Shown here: positions 2,833 to 35,690 of the stretch, piece after piece
How the letters are laid out: each line of letters begins with the position of its first letter
Numbering within the stretch: the first letter of the stretch is position 1
Origin: a virus
Strand: one strand, 5' to 3'
Length of the DNA: 40,706 bases
IMG/VR virus record: IMGVR_UViG_3300043427_001929
Span: 1-40,706 of that record
Notes under the pieces: model-generated
What the model was told of the DNA's origin: nothing
The model's input: the letters and a program-made list of their open reading frames with translations, nothing else
Database searches by the model: none
Made by a program: the position numbers and the translations under genes

Positions 2833-3510
2833 ATGGCGGGATTCACACAGCGCCTGGCGGGCTGGACTGCCGGCCGACTGGGCGGCAGCAAGGCACGCAA
2901 GAGCACGATGGATTGGATGGAGAAGACGGGGCTGGGCAAGGCCCTCTCTTTTGCCGGGGACACCGCCATCACAGGTGCAGCGTTCAAGGGCATCGGGGGG
3001 CTCAAGAACCTCATTGCTCCGGGCGTGCCTGATGCGGTGACGCAGACTATCAATGTGCCTGGACTGCCGGAAGGCACGGGGTTGACGCAGGCGGCTAGTG
3101 TGCCAGAGGCAGCGGCTGGGGCGGCTGGTGGTGGTTTGAAGCCACTTCCGCAGATGCCGGGCCGTCCATCAGTCGGCCGTTTGTATCCCGGCGCTCCAAC
3201 CCTGCGTGGCAATCAGGCAGAAAGCTATCTCAACGCCCTTCGTGCGCCCGGTGCGCCAAGCGCGGCTGGGGCGGCTCCTATGTCGTCTCTCGGTGAACTC
3301 TTCGGCACCGGTGTCCGCACCGCCACTCGGCTGGCGCGGGAGAACCCGGAAATTACAGCGGGCCTACTTCAGGGCGGCATCGAGGCGTATGGCGGAGCCG
3401 CCGAGCGCGAGATGATGCGGCAGGAGATGCTCCGGCGTCGGCAACAGCAGGAGAACCTCGCGGCGCTCCTGATGCCGATGTACGCGCAGTACTACGGGAT
3501 CGGAGGCTAA
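2833..3510 (+). CDS. Probable internal virion protein (225 aa)
   Basis: This is the first of four consecutive long genes (2833-6822) after the fibres and before lysis. The N-terminus is amphipathic and basic (about 1-35). A Gly/Ala-rich stretch at about 40-60 (SFAGDTAITGAAFKGIGG) could insert in membrane, the middle is Pro/Gly-rich, and the C-terminus ends in a Met/Arg/Gln-rich helix (REMMRQEMLRRRQQQ). Podovirus ejection proteins sit in this location and are poorly conserved. The role is inferred from position and composition only. Confidence 0.55.
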   Translation: MAGFTQRLAGWTAGRLGGSKARKSTMDWMEKTGLGKALSFAGDTAITGAAFKGIGGLKNLIAPGVPDAVTQTINVPGLPEGTGLTQAASVPEAAAGAAGGGLKPLPQMPGRPSVGRLYPGAPTLRGNQAESYLNALRAPGAPSAAGAAPMSSLGELFGTGVRTATRLARENPEITAGLLQGGIEAYGGAAEREMMRQEMLRRRQQQENLAALLMPMYAQYYGIGG

Positions 3511-14617: not shown

Positions 14618-14874
14618 CTGACGAGGACGCTGTGCCAGAGATGCCAAGCAATGACACTACCTATTGGACGCCCTATCTGCGCCGCGTCTGGTGGGCGGTG
14701 CGCGATAAGGACGGATGCGATGCCGAGTACGACACGGCGCATCACGCGATCGACGCCTACCATAACTGGTGGAACGTCGAGTGGCCGGAACACGCCCCCT
14801 ACCGCGTCGTGCGGTGCGAAGTCCACGAGACGGAAGTGGACCCGATTGGGATGGAGGTAGACAATGAGCCATAA
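14614..14874 (+). CDS. Small acidic Trp-rich protein (86 aa)
   Basis: The start overlaps the previous stop (ATGA). The protein is acidic and aromatic (WTPYLRRVWWAVRDKDG, YHNWWNVEW) and ends with CEVHETEVDPIG. No family is recognised. The high aromatic and acidic content makes a protein-binding role plausible. It overlaps the next start by 11 bases. Confidence 0.5.
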   Translation: MTDEDAVPEMPSNDTTYWTPYLRRVWWAVRDKDGCDAEYDTAHHAIDAYHNWWNVEWPEHAPYRVVRCEVHETEVDPIGMEVDNEP

Positions 14875-15418
14875 CATCGACCTCCCGCGCCATCGCTACG
14901 TCCACGTCATCGAGTCCGCGGTGCATCGGGGCGGGGCCAAGGACAAGACCATTCCCTGTGTGTGGTGGGGGATGAGTGCCACCCCGGGCCGAATGTTCGG
15001 GTGTCACATTCTGCTGGAGTCTGGCGCGATGGTCGTGGACCTCCCGCTCCACGCGCTCCGGCACCAGGCCGACGCCACGCAGCTCTGGACCTGCGACAAG
15101 GCCCAGCGGTGGGATGCCTATGGCTGGCACGTCGAGGCGCACGAGCCGGCGTATCTGACGGGCCTCGACTGCCGGGTGCTGACCGATGACCACAAGCACG
15201 TTGCGGACCTCGGGGAGCTGTGGTTCCTGCTGGATCACGTCAGCGACGGCTACTCGCTGGAGCCGGGCCAGCACAAGCACCACTGGGTCGTCGCGCTGGA
15301 CGATGGCACGTTCACCTGCGTCCCGCAGGACCAAGTGCTAGTGACCGAGAAGAGCTTCACGAAGACGGGCGGCATCCCGCCCATCAAGCGGCAGACCCGC
15401 GTGTGGAGTTGCGAATGA
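14864..15418 (+). CDS. Conserved-looking protein of unknown function (184 aa)
   Basis: The sequence is His/Trp-rich and soluble, with CVWWGMSATPGRMFGCHILL near residues 32-51, VDLPLHALRH and a C-terminal WVVALDDGTFTCVPQDQVLV. The latter resembles small beta-barrel domains of phage early proteins. No catalytic motif can be named. ATGA coupling to the next gene. Return to high GC marks the end of the low-GC patch. Confidence 0.5.
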   Translation: MSHNIDLPRHRYVHVIESAVHRGGAKDKTIPCVWWGMSATPGRMFGCHILLESGAMVVDLPLHALRHQADATQLWTCDKAQRWDAYGWHVEAHEPAYLTGLDCRVLTDDHKHVADLGELWFLLDHVSDGYSLEPGQHKHHWVVALDDGTFTCVPQDQVLVTEKSFTKTGGIPPIKRQTRVWSCE

Positions 15419-25483: not shown

Positions 25484-26893
25484 TTGACGATGGCCGTGGA
25501 TGGGAGGTTGTTTGCTGCCGAGCGGGTGGGGCGACGCAGCACCCCCACAGCGGTAGCTGTCTGCATAGCTGTCTCTGACCCCGAGATCGTGCCAGCCGCC
25601 AAGCCGAAAGCGCAGGAAGTCAGCATCCGGCTCCACAAGCTCCATCCCGGCCAGCGCCGGGTGGCGGAGCATCCCGCCCGGTTCCGGGTGGTGATGTGTG
25701 GCCGACGGTACGGCAAGTCGGCGCTAGGCATCCGCCTGGCCTGTGACGCGGCCCTGAAGGGCCAGCCGGTGGGGTGGTTTGCTCCGAGTTACAAGTTAGC
25801 GCTGGAAGCGTGGCGGGAGTTGAGTCAACGGCTCCAGCCCATCGTGGCGCGGCAGAACGAGCAAGACAAGCGGATGGAGTTGGTCACGGGTGGGGTCATC
25901 GAAATCTGGACCTTGGACACCCAAGACCCGGCGCGTGGTCGTAAATACGCGCTGGCCGTTATCGACGAGGCGGGGATTGCCAAAGACCTGCTCGATGTCT
26001 GGCAGGCGGCGATCCGGCCGACGCTGGTAGATATGGGGGGGCGGGCCCTGTTCCTCGGGACCCCGAAGGGCCGGAGGCACGGGTTCGTGACGCTGTTTAC
26101 CCGCGGGGACACGGGACAGGACCCGGACTGGCAGAGCTTCCGGGCCTCCACGCTGGAGAACCCCTACATCCCCCCCGAAGAGATCGAGGCCGCCCGCAAG
26201 GAGCTGCCGCCCGACATCTTCGCGCAGGAGTTCGAGGGCATCCCGACCGATGACGGCGCAAACCCCTTTGGGTTGGACGCCATCCGGAAGGCGGTGGGGG
26301 AGGTAGGCGAACAGCCGCCGGTCGTCTACGGCATCGACCTCGCCCGCTCGGTGGACTACACCGTGGTCTGCGGGATGGATGCCTGGCGGCGCGTGGTGCG
26401 GTTGGAGCGGTGGCAGTTGCCGTGGGCAGCTACCAAGTCAAAAATTGCGGAGATGGTGGGCAAGGTGCCCTGCGTGGTGGATGCCACCGGGGTGGGGGAT
26501 GCCATCGTCTCGGATCTTCAGCAGATGGGGGTGGATGTCACCCCGCACGTCTTCACCCAGTCGTCCAAGCTCCGGCTGATGCAGCGGCTGATTGCCGCCT
26601 TCCAGGGCGGCGAATTGCAGCTCCCCGCCGGGTGGTTGCCCGCGGAGCTGGAGACGTTCGAGTTCAGTTACACGGCCACCGGCGTGAAGTACGAAGCGCC
26701 CAAGGGGTATCACGATGACGGCGTCATGGCGTTGGGCTTGTCCCTGTATGGCTGGGACCGGGTGCAGATGGTGCCTCCGGACCCGTATGTGAAACCGGCG
26801 GTCTACGGGGATGACCCGCAGACCCGCCTCGATCAACCCCGCCCGACCGCGGTGGGGGACTTCAGTTCGCAACTGCCCGCGGAGGGTTGGTAA
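25484..26893 (+). CDS. terL: Terminase large subunit (ATPase-nuclease)
   Basis: The motor that pumps DNA into the head and cuts it. Counting from TTG 25484: Walker A CGRRYGKS (72-79), Walker B ALAVIDEA (156-163), coupling motif LGTPKG (191-196), and RNase-H-like nuclease acids Asp285 (YGIDLARS), Asp333/Asp339 (VVDATGVGDA) and Asp411/412 (GYHDDGVMAL). The length (469) is usual. The start is unsure: TTG 25484 and ATG 25490 add ~45 residues before the conserved HPGQRRV region, and no clear Shine-Dalgarno sequence is present; an internal GTG could be used. Confidence 0.93.
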   Translation: MTMAVDGRLFAAERVGRRSTPTAVAVCIAVSDPEIVPAAKPKAQEVSIRLHKLHPGQRRVAEHPARFRVVMCGRRYGKSALGIRLACDAALKGQPVGWFAPSYKLALEAWRELSQRLQPIVARQNEQDKRMELVTGGVIEIWTLDTQDPARGRKYALAVIDEAGIAKDLLDVWQAAIRPTLVDMGGRALFLGTPKGRRHGFVTLFTRGDTGQDPDWQSFRASTLENPYIPPEEIEAARKELPPDIFAQEFEGIPTDDGANPFGLDAIRKAVGEVGEQPPVVYGIDLARSVDYTVVCGMDAWRRVVRLERWQLPWAATKSKIAEMVGKVPCVVDATGVGDAIVSDLQQMGVDVTPHVFTQSSKLRLMQRLIAAFQGGELQLPAGWLPAELETFEFSYTATGVKYEAPKGYHDDGVMALGLSLYGWDRVQMVPPDPYVKPAVYGDDPQTRLDQPRPTAVGDFSSQLPAEGW

Positions 26894-27533: not shown

Positions 27534-27860
27534 ATGCCGAACTTTCGGAATAGCACCCAGAGCACGATTACGGCCGCCGACGGCGCGGTCACCTTGGCCT
27601 ACCGCCAGTTCTTCAACGGCGGCATTGGCGTCCAGGTGACGGGCACCTTTTCGGCCACGCTGTCGTTTGAGATGTCAATTGACGGCACAAACTTCGTGTC
27701 GGTGCTGGCGACCAATGTAAACTCTGGGGGCATCGCCACAACGACCACGGCGACCGGCATCTACAAGTTTGATGTCGTCGGCGCGTTGGTGGTTCGGGTG
27801 CGGGCCTCGGCGTACACCTCTGGCACGGCGACGGTCACCGTGGTTGGGATGGCCGGGTGA
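27534..27860 (+). CDS. Small beta-sandwich virion protein (108 aa)
   Basis: The protein is built of alternating strands, with GVQVTGTFSATLSFEMSIDG (about 31-50), NFVSVLA, GIYKFDVVGALVVRVRASAY and TSGTATVTVVGM. This is the pattern of a family of small phage structural proteins (immunoglobulin-like, decoration or fibre component). The next gene's GTG overlaps its TGA. It lacks a Shine-Dalgarno sequence. Confidence 0.6.
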   Translation: MPNFRNSTQSTITAADGAVTLAYRQFFNGGIGVQVTGTFSATLSFEMSIDGTNFVSVLATNVNSGGIATTTTATGIYKFDVVGALVVRVRASAYTSGTATVTVVGMAG

Positions 27861-28093
27861 GCGACAGCGATTTCTTCGGAGGGCGTCGTCGCCGCCGGGG
27901 GAACGGGGGCAGCGGCCTGACGCTCTTTTCATGGGTCGTCGGTGAGGGCGTCTCGGGCGGGACGTATAGCCGGACGGGGGACGCGACGTACAACGCGATC
28001 CAGCCGCCGTTCCTGCTCTGGAATTACACGGATGGTGTCTCAGGCGGGACGTTCGCCCGGACGGGTGACGCCACGTACACTGCGGAGAGCTAA
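27857..28093 (+). CDS. Short fibre-leader protein with an internal repeat (78 aa)
   Basis: GTG start overlaps TGA. After an Arg-rich N-terminus (FFGGRRRRRGNGGSG), the segment GVSGGTYSRTGDATY (31-45) is repeated as GVSGGTFARTGDATY (60-74). The RTGDATY motif usually opens the larger lectin-like domain that here begins in the next ORF. The TAA is followed, in the same frame, by CCG and ATG 28097. It could be a free small protein or the N-terminal part of a read-through fibre. Confidence 0.6.
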   Translation: MSDSDFFGGRRRRRGNGGSGLTLFSWVVGEGVSGGTYSRTGDATYNAIQPPFLLWNYTDGVSGGTFARTGDATYTAES

Positions 28094-28096
28094 CCG

Positions 28097-29233
28097 ATGG
28101 CCTTGACCGTAGCGACCGCAGGGACGGGAGTAGCGCGGACGGCGCACTATGTGACGCCGACCGGGGCGAGTGCGCCAATCCAGACGCTCCTGCTCGAACC
28201 CCAGCGGACGAACCTCGTACTCTATTCGCAGGACTTTGGTAACGCGGCGTGGGCGAAGAGCAACGCAACGATTACCGCAAATACAACGACCGCGCCAGAT
28301 GGTACTACGACGGCGGACAAGCTCGTCGAGAATACGGCGAACGCCCAACATCGCGTACTTGCAGTCATTACAGTTGTCGCTGGCGTAACACATACGATGT
28401 CGTTTTATGTCAAGGCCGACGAGCGAACGCGAGTCAGTATCTTCGACAATGCGTCGGCGGCTGACACCGAAATGATTTTTGACCTTTCCAATGGTACGGT
28501 GGTTCGAACTGGCACAGCGGTAGTTGCATCCAGCATTACCTCGCTGTCAGGAGGGTGGTATCGCATTACGGCGTCAAGTACGCCAACCGTAACGTCAATG
28601 CAATCCGCGTTGCGACTGGTGCAGAGTGGGACGACCAGTACCTACACAGGCGACGGCACGAGCGGCCTGTTCCTCTGGGGCGCACAGATTGAAGCTGGCT
28701 TGCCCTCCTCGTACATCAAGACCGAGGGGACGACGGTGACGCGGAACGCGGACTCGTTCTACCTCCCGTTCACGGCTCCCCCGCAGCAGATGACGGTGTA
28801 CGTCCGGGGGGTGAGCGAATCCCCGAACCCTAGCACATCGTGGCTGTTTATCGGAGACGCCGCCGCCGCCGCGCCGCGCTTGCGGATGGATTTTGGAGTG
28901 TCCCGCGTTGGGATGACACAGAACAACGGCAGCACGGAAGTCACTGACGCTGGGCCAGCCGCCTCGTTGGCCGCACGAGGGACGATGCAAGAGGGACGAT
29001 TCGTGCTGTTCGCTGACGGGTCAGTGCAAGCGAACGTCTCGCTGGGCGGTGCGGCAGAAATATCTGGCGTCCGCACGGCTGCCAACGCGCTCCCCGCCTT
29101 GTGGTCCGCGACTCGCCTGTATGTCGGCCAGCGAGGTGGGACGGCCATCAGCCAGTTCGCCTACACCCACATCGCGGTGGTCCCGGGGGTGCAGTCGATG
29201 GCGGAGATGCGAGCGATCGCGGGGGTGTCGTAA
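28097..29233 (+). CDS. Fibre/lectin-like structural protein, copy 1 (378 aa)
   Basis: It carries LLLEPQRTNLVLYSQDF (about 35-50) and APDGTTTADKLVENT (about 69-83), features of carbohydrate-binding laminin-G/ConA-like domains common in phage head or tail fibres. The C-terminal half (after PPQQMTVYVRGV) is another beta domain and ends AYTHIAVVPGVQSMAEMRAI. It lies in the same frame as its neighbours on both sides, separated only by TAA codons. It is a tandem paralogue, with equal length, of 29234-30370. A surface-binding role is inferred. Confidence 0.7.
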   Translation: MALTVATAGTGVARTAHYVTPTGASAPIQTLLLEPQRTNLVLYSQDFGNAAWAKSNATITANTTTAPDGTTTADKLVENTANAQHRVLAVITVVAGVTHTMSFYVKADERTRVSIFDNASAADTEMIFDLSNGTVVRTGTAVVASSITSLSGGWYRITASSTPTVTSMQSALRLVQSGTTSTYTGDGTSGLFLWGAQIEAGLPSSYIKTEGTTVTRNADSFYLPFTAPPQQMTVYVRGVSESPNPSTSWLFIGDAAAAAPRLRMDFGVSRVGMTQNNGSTEVTDAGPAASLAARGTMQEGRFVLFADGSVQANVSLGGAAEISGVRTAANALPALWSATRLYVGQRGGTAISQFAYTHIAVVPGVQSMAEMRAIAGVS

Positions 29234-30370
29234 ATGGACGAGTTGATTGTCGCCACCGCCGCCACCGGGGTCGCCCGCACCTCGCATTACGTCACCCCGA
29301 CGGGGGCCAGCGCCCCGATCCAGACGTTGCTCTTGGAGCCGCAGCGAACGAACCTGTGCATCCGGTCCGAGGAGTTTGATACGTGGACGCTGGCAAGCGC
29401 AACCGTCACGGCGAACACGACGACGGCACCAGACGGCACCCTCACGGCAGATACGCTGAGCGTCACCTCTTCCGCTGGCGGCATTTATCGGGTCGTCACG
29501 TTCACGGGCGACGGGGAAAAATGCGCTGCGGTGTTTCTGCGTGCGGGCACCGCCACCAAGACTCGCCTCACGATTAGAGACCAGTCTGCGGCTGTGAACC
29601 GCCACGTGGTTGACGTCACGTGGACCGCTGGCGTTCCGACTCTGGCGACAGTTGCAGGCGCAGGCACACTGTACCCGGTCGAAGCACTCGCGAACGGCTG
29701 GTATCGCATCCTGTTCAGCGCAACGGGCGTTGTGGCGGCCAATGTGCATCGCTACCTCATTACCGACAATGAGGTGGTGACTGGAACGGTCGGGCTCTGG
29801 GGCGCACAGGCCGAGAACGCGGTGGTGCCGTCCTCGTACATCAAGACGCAAGCCACGACGGTGACGCGGAACGCCGACAGCCTCTATTTCCCGTTCACCG
29901 CGCCGCCGCAGGCGATGACGGTGTACGTGCGGGGGGTCAATGCTGGTGCATACCAGAGCCAGACAAACGCCGCACGTGTGTTGCACATTGGTGACATCAA
30001 TACGGGAGCCGACCCCCGCTTTTCGCTGGTGCGAAATGCTGGCACAAGTCAGGTGCAAACACTTTACGACGATGGCGTGACACTACGTTCCGGCAACGCT
30101 ACGCCGTCGCCTATTCCCGTGTTGCGCGACATCATTGAGCATCGCGGCGTGCTTTCGTCATCGTGGGTACCGTCAAGTGGCATCAGCGTTAACGGCGGAG
30201 TCGAGCAGACGGGCACGACGACTGCCTCTGGCCCTGCAACGGCGTGGGCTAATCCGCGCCTCTATATTGCTGGTCACGCGGACCACGACCAGTTCGCCTA
30301 CACACACGTCATTGTCGCCGCTGGCGAGCAGACGATGGCGACGATGCGTTCTCTCGCTGGAGTTGCCTGA
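29234..30370 (+). CDS. Fibre/lectin-like structural protein, copy 2 (378 aa)
   Basis: The ATG follows the TAA of copy 1 with no gap and in the same frame. The N-terminal ~45 residues are almost the same as copy 1 (VARTSHYVTPTGASAPIQTL, LLEPQRTNL), the middle diverges, and landmarks PPQAMTVYVRGV and FAYTHVIVAAGEQTMATMRS match again. The pattern of conserved ends and variable middle suggests a duplicated adhesin with diversified binding surface. No separate ribosome site is visible, so translation likely depends on termination-reinitiation. Confidence 0.7.
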   Translation: MDELIVATAATGVARTSHYVTPTGASAPIQTLLLEPQRTNLCIRSEEFDTWTLASATVTANTTTAPDGTLTADTLSVTSSAGGIYRVVTFTGDGEKCAAVFLRAGTATKTRLTIRDQSAAVNRHVVDVTWTAGVPTLATVAGAGTLYPVEALANGWYRILFSATGVVAANVHRYLITDNEVVTGTVGLWGAQAENAVVPSSYIKTQATTVTRNADSLYFPFTAPPQAMTVYVRGVNAGAYQSQTNAARVLHIGDINTGADPRFSLVRNAGTSQVQTLYDDGVTLRSGNATPSPIPVLRDIIEHRGVLSSSWVPSSGISVNGGVEQTGTTTASGPATAWANPRLYIAGHADHDQFAYTHVIVAAGEQTMATMRSLAGVA

Positions 30371-30738
30371 TGCGTCCGTCGATGATTGTCACCCTGCCCG
30401 TCACCGCGCTCCCCGAGGAGTTCACGGCGGGCTACGTCGTCCTCGGGGTCGTGGACGGCCTTGCCTACGTCCACCTCGCGCCGTATGCCGAACCGCAGGA
30501 GGTCTACTTCCGCGACGGGGCGTTGAGCGCGGAGCCGAACGGCGGACAAGCCGGGGTGCTAGAGACGCCGCGCCCCGCGTTTGCGGAGGGGGCCGACGTG
30601 TTCTACGATCCCGCGCCCGCCGCGTTCCGGTGGGACGTGTTCGCCGCCGCGCATCCGGACCTGACGACAGAGCAGACGAGCTGGTTGGGCGAGGCGCGTC
30701 CGCCGAAGCTGATGGCTCATCAGTGGATGGGCGAGTGA
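30370..30738 (+). CDS. Small virion-region protein (122 aa)
   Basis: ATGA overlap with copy 2. The sequence is acidic/Pro-rich and soluble, with MIVTLPVTALPEEFTAGYVV and HLAPYAEPQEVYFRDG, then FRWDVFAAAHPDLTTEQTSW near the end. No motif recognised. Position before the portal and coupling to it suggest a minor structural or assembly role. Confidence 0.5.
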   Translation: MRPSMIVTLPVTALPEEFTAGYVVLGVVDGLAYVHLAPYAEPQEVYFRDGALSAEPNGGQAGVLETPRPAFAEGADVFYDPAPAAFRWDVFAAAHPDLTTEQTSWLGEARPPKLMAHQWMGE

Positions 30739-31004
30739 GCCTCGTCATCCACAGCCTTTGGGCGGCGGTGGCGGTGTACTTTGTGCATACCGCCGCTGGC
30801 GTGGTGCGGGAGTTCAAGGCCGCGCCGGTGGCACCGGTCCTGCCCCCGCCGGTCGAGATTCCCGAGGATTTGGTGGCCGTGGCCAACCAGGAGCGGGAGC
30901 CGTGGGCGCAGGAAGAGGTTCTCCGGTCCATTCGGGAGCGGTATGAGGACCTCAGGGACTGGAATCGGGTTCGGAGCGCCTTTGGCGTCGGGAGAATCGG
31001 GTAA
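30735..31004 (+). CDS. Small membrane-anchored protein (89 aa)
   Basis: GTG start overlaps TGA. One N-terminal hydrophobic helix (VIHSLWAAVAVYFVHTAAGV, about 4-23) is followed by a Pro-rich linker (APVAPVLPPPVEIPED) and a charged helix (AQEEVLRSIRERYEDLRDW). It lies directly before the portal. Role unknown; the form is like a small membrane tether. Confidence 0.55.
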   Translation: MSLVIHSLWAAVAVYFVHTAAGVVREFKAAPVAPVLPPPVEIPEDLVAVANQEREPWAQEEVLRSIRERYEDLRDWNRVRSAFGVGRIG

Positions 31005-33218
31005 ATGACGAGTCCGTATATCGAGTCGCTGCTGGACGACGTAGCGGTGCGGGCGATGGAGGGGTTTTCCAACGATCCCACCACGCCGAATGACGAGGTT
31101 GCGCCGAATCCGCCGGAGGATACGGGGGCGACGGTCGAGGAAGACATCGCAGCGCTCCAGCGGGCGCTGTATGGCGCGGATTACCCCGGGGCAGACCCGA
31201 ATACCGCCGACGATATGCAGGCGTGGGCCTCGTGGGGCCGGGGGCTGTGGGAGTCTCGGCGCGAGGCTGTGCAGATGCACCTCCACTTGGTGGAGCGGAA
31301 CCGGCTGTTCCGGGCCGGTCAGCAGTGGATTTCGGCCAATGGGCTGGGGCCGTGGCGTGAGCCGGCCCGTCCGCGGGATGCGGCTCGCGTGGTCTACAAT
31401 ATGATCGACAAGGCGCTCGACCAGCGCCTGCAGATCCTGATGGACCAGAAGCCGGGCTTCTCGGTAACGCCGACGACGCAGGACCCGGACGATAAGCGCA
31501 AGGCGCAGGCCCAGCAGCTGTCGCTGGAGTACCAGTACGAGCAGATGCTGATGCCCCGGCTGGCTCGGGAAGCGGCGTTCTGGGCTCAGACGGACGGCGT
31601 GAGCTTCTGGCACCTGTTCTGGGACCCGGACAAGGGCCCGTGGGACGAGCGGCTGGGGATGGCTCCGGGCCAGAAGAAGCCGCTGGGCGACCTCGGGTGC
31701 CAGACACTCCGCGTGGAGCAGGTCCGAGTGTCCCCCAACGCGACGGTGTCGCAGGCCCCGCATTGGGTGGTCATCCGCGAGGTGATCACCAAGGCTGAGG
31801 CCGCGTTCCGCTACGGCGTGACGGGGCTGGAGGCGGCGGATACCACGATGATGTCGGGCAACCAGCCGACCTATAGCGGGTCGGAGGGCATTGGCGCGTG
31901 GGTGCTGACGCAGACCACGATTGGCGAGGGCCAGCGGCTCCGGGACGAGGACGTGACCGAGCGGTTCACGGTCTACGTCGCTCCGCACCCGGACGCTCTT
32001 CCTGAGGGCCTGCACCTCATCATCGTGGGGGACACGGTCGTCTTCGGCCCGTCGCCCCTCCTCTGGAATGCCATCCCCGTGGTCGCGGTACGGGACGGCT
32101 CCAGCGATCCGTCGTACTACCCGCGCCCGGTGGTGGAGCAGTGGCTCGACCACCAGATGCGCGTGAACGCCCTGTTGTCCAAGTGGGTCGAGAACATCCG
32201 CGTGAACGCGGGTGGGCGGTTCCTGACCCGGCCGAACGCGATCGCCACCGAGACGTTTATGGGTGGCGTGACCTCGATGATTGAGATTCGGGGCGCGGGG
32301 CCGATGTCGGACTCCATTCAGCCGGTGCAGGGCTTCTCGGTTGGGCAGGACGTAAAGGAGGCGCTGGCGCTGGAGAAGACGGCTTTTGAGGACGCCTCGG
32401 GCTGGAACGCGGTCAGCCGCGGCCAGGTCACCGGGGAGTCGGGCCGAGCCATCATCGCCAGCCGTGAGCAGCTGGAGCGGGTGTTCAGCCCCGCCGTCAA
32501 CGCGCTGGCGCAGGCGTTCACGGACTGGTGCAAGGTGGCGATGGCGGGGATGGCGTGGGGCTACGATGTCCCGCGGGCGCTGGGCGCGGTCGGCAAGGGC
32601 CGGCCGGACCTCGCTCGGGCGGTGTCGTCCACGGACCTCGACGGGCAGTCGGATGTCCGGGTGGAGCCCGCGACGCTGATGCCGATGCCGATGGCCTTCC
32701 GGCTCTACCTGCTCGACAACTGGCTGCAGTCCGGCATTATCGACATCAAGGAATACCGCCGTCGGCAGATGTTCGCCGTGGCGCGGGATATGTCCAGCCC
32801 GGACGAGGATCAGGAGGCACGGGCCAAGCGGGTGGCGGACGCCATCCGGATGGGCGCGATGGTCCCCGAGCTTCGCTGGCAGGACAACGAAGCGATTCAT
32901 CAGGACGTACTGGAGCGGGAGATTCTGCTTCAGGACGACTTGGACCCACAGATTATTGCCGCCGCGCAGGAGCGGTGGACGGCCTTGGCAAATCAGGCCG
33001 CACAGAAGCAGGGGGCGATGGCTCCGCCGATGGGCGGGGCACCCCCGGCTGGCCCCGGTCAACCGACCGGTGTGCCCTCCTTCCCCGCGGGACAGCTGCC
33101 GCTGGCCAGCAATAATCCGCCGATTGGGGCCATTGGGGCTCTGCAGGAGGCCCAGATGGGCCAGTCGCCGGATCAGATGTTGGCGGGCCAGTCCGACACC
33201 CTGTCGCGCCAATTTTAG
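31005..33218 (+). CDS. Portal protein, P22-like
   Basis: This 737-residue protein forms the dodecameric ring at one capsid vertex for DNA passage. Its length and the order of segments fit P22-type portals: a helical N-terminus with WISANGLGPWREPARPRDAA near 105-125 and VVYNMIDKALDQRLQILMDQ, a central wing, then the stem/crown region with VNALLSKWVENIRVNAG and EDASGWNAVSRGQVTG. The last ~80 residues are Gln/Pro/Gly-rich and could be the barrel or a disordered end. TAAATG junction with the preceding gene. Confidence 0.8.
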   Translation: MTSPYIESLLDDVAVRAMEGFSNDPTTPNDEVAPNPPEDTGATVEEDIAALQRALYGADYPGADPNTADDMQAWASWGRGLWESRREAVQMHLHLVERNRLFRAGQQWISANGLGPWREPARPRDAARVVYNMIDKALDQRLQILMDQKPGFSVTPTTQDPDDKRKAQAQQLSLEYQYEQMLMPRLAREAAFWAQTDGVSFWHLFWDPDKGPWDERLGMAPGQKKPLGDLGCQTLRVEQVRVSPNATVSQAPHWVVIREVITKAEAAFRYGVTGLEAADTTMMSGNQPTYSGSEGIGAWVLTQTTIGEGQRLRDEDVTERFTVYVAPHPDALPEGLHLIIVGDTVVFGPSPLLWNAIPVVAVRDGSSDPSYYPRPVVEQWLDHQMRVNALLSKWVENIRVNAGGRFLTRPNAIATETFMGGVTSMIEIRGAGPMSDSIQPVQGFSVGQDVKEALALEKTAFEDASGWNAVSRGQVTGESGRAIIASREQLERVFSPAVNALAQAFTDWCKVAMAGMAWGYDVPRALGAVGKGRPDLARAVSSTDLDGQSDVRVEPATLMPMPMAFRLYLLDNWLQSGIIDIKEYRRRQMFAVARDMSSPDEDQEARAKRVADAIRMGAMVPELRWQDNEAIHQDVLEREILLQDDLDPQIIAAAQERWTALANQAAQKQGAMAPPMGGAPPAGPGQPTGVPSFPAGQLPLASNNPPIGAIGALQEAQMGQSPDQMLAGQSDTLSRQF

Positions 33219-34379: not shown

Positions 34380-35690
34380 ATGCCGAATCCTACCGTTATC
34401 ACGGATGCGGAACTCACTGGTCTGCTGAAGAACGTTTACAGCCAGTTCCGCGAGAAGGTCCAGAACCTCGTCACCCCGCTTCTTGCCCAGCTGGAGAAGG
34501 GTCGGGCGGGCGGCCCCCGCAACATGCGCTGGGGCGGCAACAACGTGTTTTTCGATGTCGTGACCGGCCGTCCGGCTGGCGCGACGTTCTCGTCGGCCGG
34601 GTACTTCCCGCCTGACACCACCGCGACGGAAGTGCAGGCGAACGTCGGCGTGGTTCGTGCGTACACGACCCGCCAGATCGACGGCCTCGCCTTCGTTGGC
34701 ACGCAGTCCAAGGATGCCGCTTTCACCACCATCGCCAAGAAGACGATGGAGGAGATCAAGGAGGCGTCCACCCTGCTTATGCAGCAGGCGCTCCACAATA
34801 AGGCGGATGGCGTCGTCGCCCTCATCGGCACGGCTTCGTCCACCACGAGCATCATCGTGTCGTCCCCCTACGGCGTGAGCGGCGCGGGCCAGGGCTCGCT
34901 CCTCCTCTCCGTGGGTGACTACATCGCGGTCCTCGACACCTCGTCGTCGGACGCGGTGCTCGGCCGCTCGGCCATCACCGCCATCAGCAACAGCGGCGAC
35001 AACGCCACGCTGACGCTTGGCACGGCCATCTCGGGCATGGCGGCGACGGACAAGATTGTCAAGGCGACCGCCTCTGACACCTCGTTCAACAGCGCTATGA
35101 ACGGGCTCATCAACATCACCAACCGCGGCGGGTCGTATGCCTCGCTGCACAACATCTCGGCCTCCACCTACGGCATCTGGGACGCGACGCGCCTCGTGGC
35201 CGGCACGGATACGCCGGATGCGAACCAGCCGACCGAGTCGGACATCTGGGACCTTATCCAGAAGATCTCTGGCCGCAGCGGCAAGGACGCGATGGTGCGT
35301 CCGAAGGACTTCCTGCTCATGACGACCCCGGGCCTCGCCAAGAAGCTCATGGAGTCGATGGTCGGGCAGCGTCGGTTCACCGCCGGCGAGTTCAGCACGA
35401 CGATCAAGGGTGGCTACAAGGCCCTTGAGGTCTGCGGCGTGCCGCTCGTGCAGGACTACTACGTCCCGGCTGGCACCATCTACCTCCTCCACATCCCCTC
35501 GCTCTCGTGGGTGGATGCGAAGGATTGGGGCTTCGTCGAGTTCGAGGGCGCGGGTCCGTGGCGTTGGCTCTCGGGGCGTGACGCCTTCGAGACGACCTAC
35601 GGCTGGTACGGCAACCTCGCCTGCCTGGCGCGTAACGCGCACGGCTCGATCACGGGGTACACCGACACGGCGCGCTACACGCACGTCTAA
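34380..35690 (+). CDS. Major capsid protein, HK97 fold, with probable insertion domain
   Basis: This 436-residue protein forms the icosahedral shell. The N-terminal part (FREKVQNLVTPLLAQLEKGR, then MRWGGNNVFFDVVTGRP) and the C-terminal part (KDFLLMTTPGLAKKLMESMV, then ALEVCGVPLVQDYYVPAGTI) have the P22/T7-like capsid layout. Residues ~145-240, Ser/Thr/Gly-rich (SSTTSIIVSSPYGVSG, AITAISNSGDNATLTLG), look like an inserted Ig-like domain. The 25-base leader is pyrimidine-rich without a Shine-Dalgarno sequence, surprising for the most abundant protein. Confidence 0.85.
   Translation: MPNPTVITDAELTGLLKNVYSQFREKVQNLVTPLLAQLEKGRAGGPRNMRWGGNNVFFDVVTGRPAGATFSSAGYFPPDTTATEVQANVGVVRAYTTRQIDGLAFVGTQSKDAAFTTIAKKTMEEIKEASTLLMQQALHNKADGVVALIGTASSTTSIIVSSPYGVSGAGQGSLLLSVGDYIAVLDTSSSDAVLGRSAITAISNSGDNATLTLGTAISGMAATDKIVKATASDTSFNSAMNGLINITNRGGSYASLHNISASTYGIWDATRLVAGTDTPDANQPTESDIWDLIQKISGRSGKDAMVRPKDFLLMTTPGLAKKLMESMVGQRRFTAGEFSTTIKGGYKALEVCGVPLVQDYYVPAGTIYLLHIPSLSWVDAKDWGFVEFEGAGPWRWLSGRDAFETTYGWYGNLACLARNAHGSITGYTDTARYTHV

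Follow-up and report, generated by a model that had tools for sequence, protein, structure and literature searches.

A well-described counterpart of the genes considered here is the head spike of the gene transfer agent RcGTA, in which a base pentamer of Rcc01079 carries one Rcc01080 fibre, anchored through the ten N-terminal residues of the fibre, the base-binding anchor and the lectin domain residing on the same chain (PMC7296036); the spike fibre binds capsule-bearing cells (PMC10218006). As regards the arrangement of neighbouring genes, genes must overlap or lie only a very short distance apart for reinitiation, and the products of such gene pairs are frequently subunits of complexes (PMC10666635). 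Mosaic receptor-binding proteins are known from phages, an example being Alteromonas phages that share tail fibres (PMC10579305).

In the window, i.e. the whole stretch of 40,706 nucleotides of the IMG/VR virus record IMGVR_UViG_3300043427_001929 that was analysed, ORF1, ORF2 and ORF3 lie in one reading frame and are separated by the junctions TAA-CCG-ATG (ORF1/ORF2) and TAA-ATG (ORF2/ORF3) (table 1). ORF1 starts with GTG within a GTGA overlap with the preceding ORF0 and ends with FARTGDATYTAES, and the segment LLLEPQRTNL occupies residues 31-40 of ORF2. The original prediction gave the positions, the common frame and the two junctions correctly, and it also envisaged read-through products of 78, 457 and 836 residues; the first length is right, and the other two become 458 and 837 when both stops are read as residues. 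In all close relatives with contigs long enough to show it, ORF4 comes after the last fibre gene.

Table 1. Features of the fibre cassette, with positions in the window.
Feature	Position	Strand	Basis or remark
ORF0, 108 aa, beta-rich, candidate spike-base protein	27534..27860	+	by position only
ORF1, 78 aa, separate N-terminal chain with an Arg-rich start and two repeat units	27857..28093	+	
ORF1 repeat unit 1 (TLFSWVVGEGVSGGTYSRTGDATY)	27920..27991	+	read from sequence
ORF1 repeat unit 2 (PFLLWNYTDGVSGGTFARTGDATY)	28007..28078	+	read from sequence
Joint 1: GGAG 28084-28087, TAA 28091-28093, CCG, ATG 28097	28084..28099	+	
ORF2, 378 aa fibre, copy a	28097..29233	+	phmmer to Rcc01080; PHROG 5939, tail protein
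ORF2 variable module 1, GhsB-like jelly roll	28226..28705	+	divergent between near-identical phages
ORF2 conserved hinge (SSYIKTEGTTVTRNADS...MTVYVRGV)	28706..28813	+	conserved block between two variable modules
ORF2 variable module 2, laminin-G/ConA-like	28814..29152	+	fold inferred from ORF3 equivalent
C-terminal joint and joint 2: GGGGGTG 29221-29227, TAA 29231-29233, ATG 29234	29153..29236	+	
ORF3, 378 aa fibre, copy b	29234..30370	+	paralogue of ORF2
ORF3 conserved hinge	29831..29938	+	alignment of copies and relatives
Joint 3: GGAG, TGATG overlap into ORF4	30359..30372	+	
ORF4, 122 aa, function unassigned	30370..30738	+	after last fibre gene in relatives

ORF2 and ORF3 are 43% identical to each other. 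Residues 15-223 of ORF2 match the head-spike fibre Rcc01080/GhsB (PDB 6TB9; phmmer E=3.1e-32), and Rcc01080 is also matched by a profile of the family (E=1.2e-29). The AlphaFold2 model of ORF3 comprises two beta domains (mean pLDDT 69, pTM 0.47) with best Foldseek matches to laminin-G/neurexin and galectin folds at low whole-chain TM-scores, and the second domain looks, with due caution, laminin-G-like. The two genes would thus encode paralogous fibres, each combining a GhsB-like jelly roll with a laminin-G-like domain. Both would be attached to the virion, and their domains probably bind host surface sugars. Scanning GTDB genomes with the fibre profile revealed no relative.

The cassette lies between the terminase (25484-26893) and portal (31005-33218) genes, upstream of the major head protein gene (34380-35690), and in the related locus L041 it lies between portal and major head protein; because these are head genes, a head spike would suit the surroundings better than a tail fibre, position being no proof of assembly into the head. 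ORF0 and ORF1 had no match in the PDB, and ORF0 did not match the base protein Rcc01079. Homologues of ORF0 precede the ORF1 analogue in L044-L047, and its counterpart in L041 is 30% identical. On the minus strand, an 830-codon antisense ORF (30720-33212) runs over the portal gene and probably arises as a by-product of high G+C codon usage. A further gene resembling tail fibres (PHROG 31660) is found at 920-2155, at the extreme left of the record, and a gene matching PHROG 3704, annotated as a ferredoxin (auxiliary metabolism), at 14864-15418.

The explanation we favour, with a probability of roughly four in five, is that ORF1-ORF3 form three translationally coupled genes, each with its own initiation, in a head-spike module rather than one gene with leaky stops. 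Two points count against it: in RcGTA the anchor sits on the lectin chain (PMC7296036), so that ORF2 and ORF3, if never fused to ORF1, would need another way of attaching to the virion, and sequence comparison revealed no base protein. Shine-Dalgarno-like sites precede ORF2 (GGAG, 9 nt spacing, inside ORF1), ORF3 (GGGGGTG, 6 nt spacing, inside ORF2, with seven bases pairing to the anti-Shine-Dalgarno sequence) and ORF4 (GGAG, 7 nt spacing, inside ORF3), all of them short matches in a genome with 66% G+C. The joints hence combine a very short gap with a Shine-Dalgarno stretch inside the upstream gene, as coupled cistrons do, and the possibility raised originally that reinitiation yields separate chains gains support from the presence of such a site at each start. 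Under the coupling predicted from these features, ribosomes halting at each TAA would restart at the ATG 0-3 nt further on, aided by the Shine-Dalgarno stretch in the 3' end of the upstream gene. A search for promoter-like sites returned none, and terminator-like sites occurred at chance level.

The shared frame of the three genes is ordinary and not beyond chance, because in a chain of 41 plausible plus-strand genes of the window, picked by hand, 7 of the 28 same-strand junctions with a gap of at most 30 nt are in frame, and two zero-gap TAA-ATG joints (3510/3511 and 31004/31005) occur in addition to that at 29233/29234. The joint at 3510/3511 has GGAGG upstream. That at 31004/31005 leads to the portal gene, for which one would not expect a fusion.

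The joints were compared across seven IMG/VR loci with two fibre copies (L004, L005, L036, L037, L039, L035 and L017), which together with the window make eight sequences, and across loci with one copy (L018, L041/L022 and L024); L023 and L026 end at the contig edge. Joint 2 reads TAAATG in all eight two-copy sequences. Joint 1 reads TAACCGATG in the group of the window and TAGCATATG in L018, L041, L023 and L026, one or the other being present in 10 sequences; the identity of the stop differs by clade (TAA-CCG versus TAG-CAT), the 6-nt step from stop to ATG is constant, and a stop codon with a new start separates ORF1 from ORF2 in all close relatives that have ORF1. In L024 the gene upstream of the joint is unrelated to ORF1, yet the bases AGCTAACCGATG are retained, and in L045/L047 both the small Arg-rich ORF upstream and the fibre-like ORF downstream are different ones, with CTAACCGATG again between them. 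Since the joint recurs beside unrelated upstream or downstream genes, these comparisons argue that it travels as a unit, which is enough alone to fix the frame; the reading frame would be preserved by inheritance or recombination of the entire stop-start joint in one piece. The unrelated fibre-like ORFs that follow the same stop-start joint are located at L045:5421-6700 and L047:1841-3100. Matches from an IMG/VR scan for the joint GGAGNNCTAACCGATG were discarded, as most are expected by chance with 14 fixed bases.

Rcc01080 of RcGTA, like many distant relatives (L012, L027, L028, L030, L032, L177-L184, L187, L205 and L215), has a segment similar to FTRSGDAS or RATSATY that continues within the same ORF into LLLEPQRTN or its equivalent. 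The same order is seen in the window, where ORF2 starts about 30 residues ahead of LLLEPQRTN. ORF1 and ORF2 together look like one protein cut in two, with a match of ORF1 that is statistically weak: in pairwise comparisons of its tail with the fused leader, 28-282 of 500 shuffles score as high, and against a profile of the fused leaders the corresponding figures per 1000 shuffles are 13 for the window, 38 for L018 and 363 for L041. The expectation that RTGDATY usually runs on into LLLEPQRTNL is thus borne out by the fused relatives and Rcc01080, but only at weak significance (13/1000 shuffles) by the tail of ORF1 itself; fused versions, which the prediction suggested looking for among homologues, are present in distant relatives, the close relatives that bear ORF1 all having separate genes. 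An old gene fission appears the likeliest origin of ORF1 and ORF2, ORF1 then encoding a small chain that corresponds to the leader found at the N-terminus of GhsB-like head-spike fibres. Comparison of the L018 and L041 homologues of ORF1 gave dN 0.126 against dS 0.736, with 28 of 45 changes at third positions, so by its substitution pattern ORF1 is a real gene under purifying selection.

There is a minor but appreciable chance that ORF1 is instead a small virion protein with an unrelated function of its own and that its RTGDATY motif is a coincidence. The low scores of its tail against the fused leaders and its absence from L024 would fit this idea, which accords poorly with the agreement of position and motif order with the fused relatives and with the fusion of the first 18 ORF1 residues straight to a fibre domain in L044/L046, two loci sharing the terminase and ORF0 region. 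The ORFs concerned, L044:3279-4886 and L046:2878-3254, have the ORF1 N-terminus in frame with fibre domains, and that of L044 apparently contains two GhsB-like domains.

Rather improbable is a narrower version of the favoured explanation, equally compatible with separate initiation, in which ORF1 serves as a separate adaptor holding the fibres non-covalently, with one FxRTGxATY unit per fibre gene. The two repeat units of ORF1 also resemble each other in DNA (27944-27992 and 28031-28079). A 24-residue unit ending in RTGDATY is present twice in ORF1 of phages with two fibres (window, L037, L039 and L036) and once in those with one (L018 and L041), an equality that may be due to chance, only two independent lineages being represented. 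An adaptor would also agree with the purifying selection on ORF1 and with the location of the equivalent segment immediately before the lectin body in fused relatives; against it, L024 has a fibre without ORF1, and when ORF1-ORF2 was modelled as a read-through chain, the ORF1 part came out with no confident structure (pLDDT about 25). A little more doubtful still is a split spike in which the ORF1 adaptor, with one docking unit per fibre gene, assembles two different and freely exchangeable lectin chains on one spike non-covalently.

Programmed read-through, by which a few ribosomes would decode the TAA codons to give long adhesins and an anchored ORF1-ORF2 fibre, is very improbable. TAA is the least leaky stop, and TAA followed by a start codon makes a poor read-through site. 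In the RNA phage Qbeta, a minor virion protein is made by read-through of a leaky UGA with no immediate restart; the genes described here resemble this case in their in-frame extension beyond the stop and differ in using TAA or TAG followed immediately by a start codon. In favour of read-through, both joints stay in frame in all close relatives, leader and lectin are fused in distant relatives and RcGTA, and an anchor like that of RcGTA, which carries 11 spikes with one fibre chain each (PMC7296036), would exist on a fused chain only. However, neither joint pairs a leaky stop with conserved surroundings: stop and next base differ from case to case (TAA-C, TAA-A and TAG-C) and the codon after the stop is not conserved. 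RNA folding of the 100 nt downstream of each stop was no better than that of shuffles (z -0.36 and 0.33), though some read-through sites do without a stimulatory structure, and a search of the window for tRNA genes, and hence for a phage-borne suppressor, found none. The read-through option of the original prediction is therefore unlikely, because each stop is followed directly by a start with its own Shine-Dalgarno-like site, the stops vary between clades, the joints persist next to unrelated genes (upstream in L024, downstream in L045/L047), and neither a downstream structure nor a suppressor was detected. Recoding of stops was rejected, since TAA, TAG and TGA all terminate genes in the hand-picked chain.

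The exchange of fibre modules also speaks for the favoured explanation of separately started spike genes. In the alignment, conserved blocks at residues 1-43, about 200-239 and 353-378 flank the two variable modules. Downstream of the fibres, the backbones of the two-copy phages are 96-99% identical in DNA, while some modules go down to about 30-45%. L018:3675-4616 and L005:170-1170 (copy a) are almost 100% identical in DNA over about 1 kb; identity falls to about 60-70% on both sides, with sharp edges at conserved joints; the flanks in L018 are those of the L041 lineage (87-89%), and the backbones of L018 and L005 are otherwise unrelated. Copy a of L004 (L004:1-814) is a hybrid, its module 1 resembling window ORF2 (93%) and its module 2 window ORF3 (91%). 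The shared kilobase and the hybrid copy indicate recent exchange of lectin modules between copies and between phages, which would proceed by recombination at the conserved joints. Tandem duplication of the complete unit would be a simple origin of the two copies, but the ends of copy a resemble copy b less than the single-copy gene of L018 does, and gain of the second copy by recombination is as likely.

These considerations remove an otherwise attractive claim of read-through, and we regard the in-frame stops as ordinary; the useful results concern the assignment to a head spike, the leader split from its body and the exchange of modules. They suggest that uncultivated phages possess a head-spike system of the GhsB type, with leader and body in separate genes, a duplicated body, and lectin modules that appear to move between phages with unrelated backbones. 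If split chains really came together non-covalently, a phage would have an uncomplicated means of mounting different surface binders on a single anchor.

Compared with known systems, the locus shares with Rcc01080 of RcGTA a homologous lectin-type domain and a place within the head module, and the RATSATY leader immediately before LLLE in that protein corresponds to the order in ORF1-ORF2. However, Rcc01080 is one 325-residue chain, whereas leader and body are separate genes here, with the body present twice and extended by a second, laminin-G-like domain; the base-binding N-terminus on the lectin chain that characterizes a GhsB-like fibre gives way to a stop and restart. The very short gaps and the Shine-Dalgarno stretches within upstream genes resemble termination-reinitiation coupling as described in PMC6728339 and PMC10666635, but the gaps are +3 and 0 nt instead of the commonest -4 and -1. 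Fibre modules common to distantly related phages recall the mosaic fibres of Alteromonas phages (PMC10579305), with the difference that here two variable modules are set between three conserved joints and exchange seems to take place between tandem copies too.
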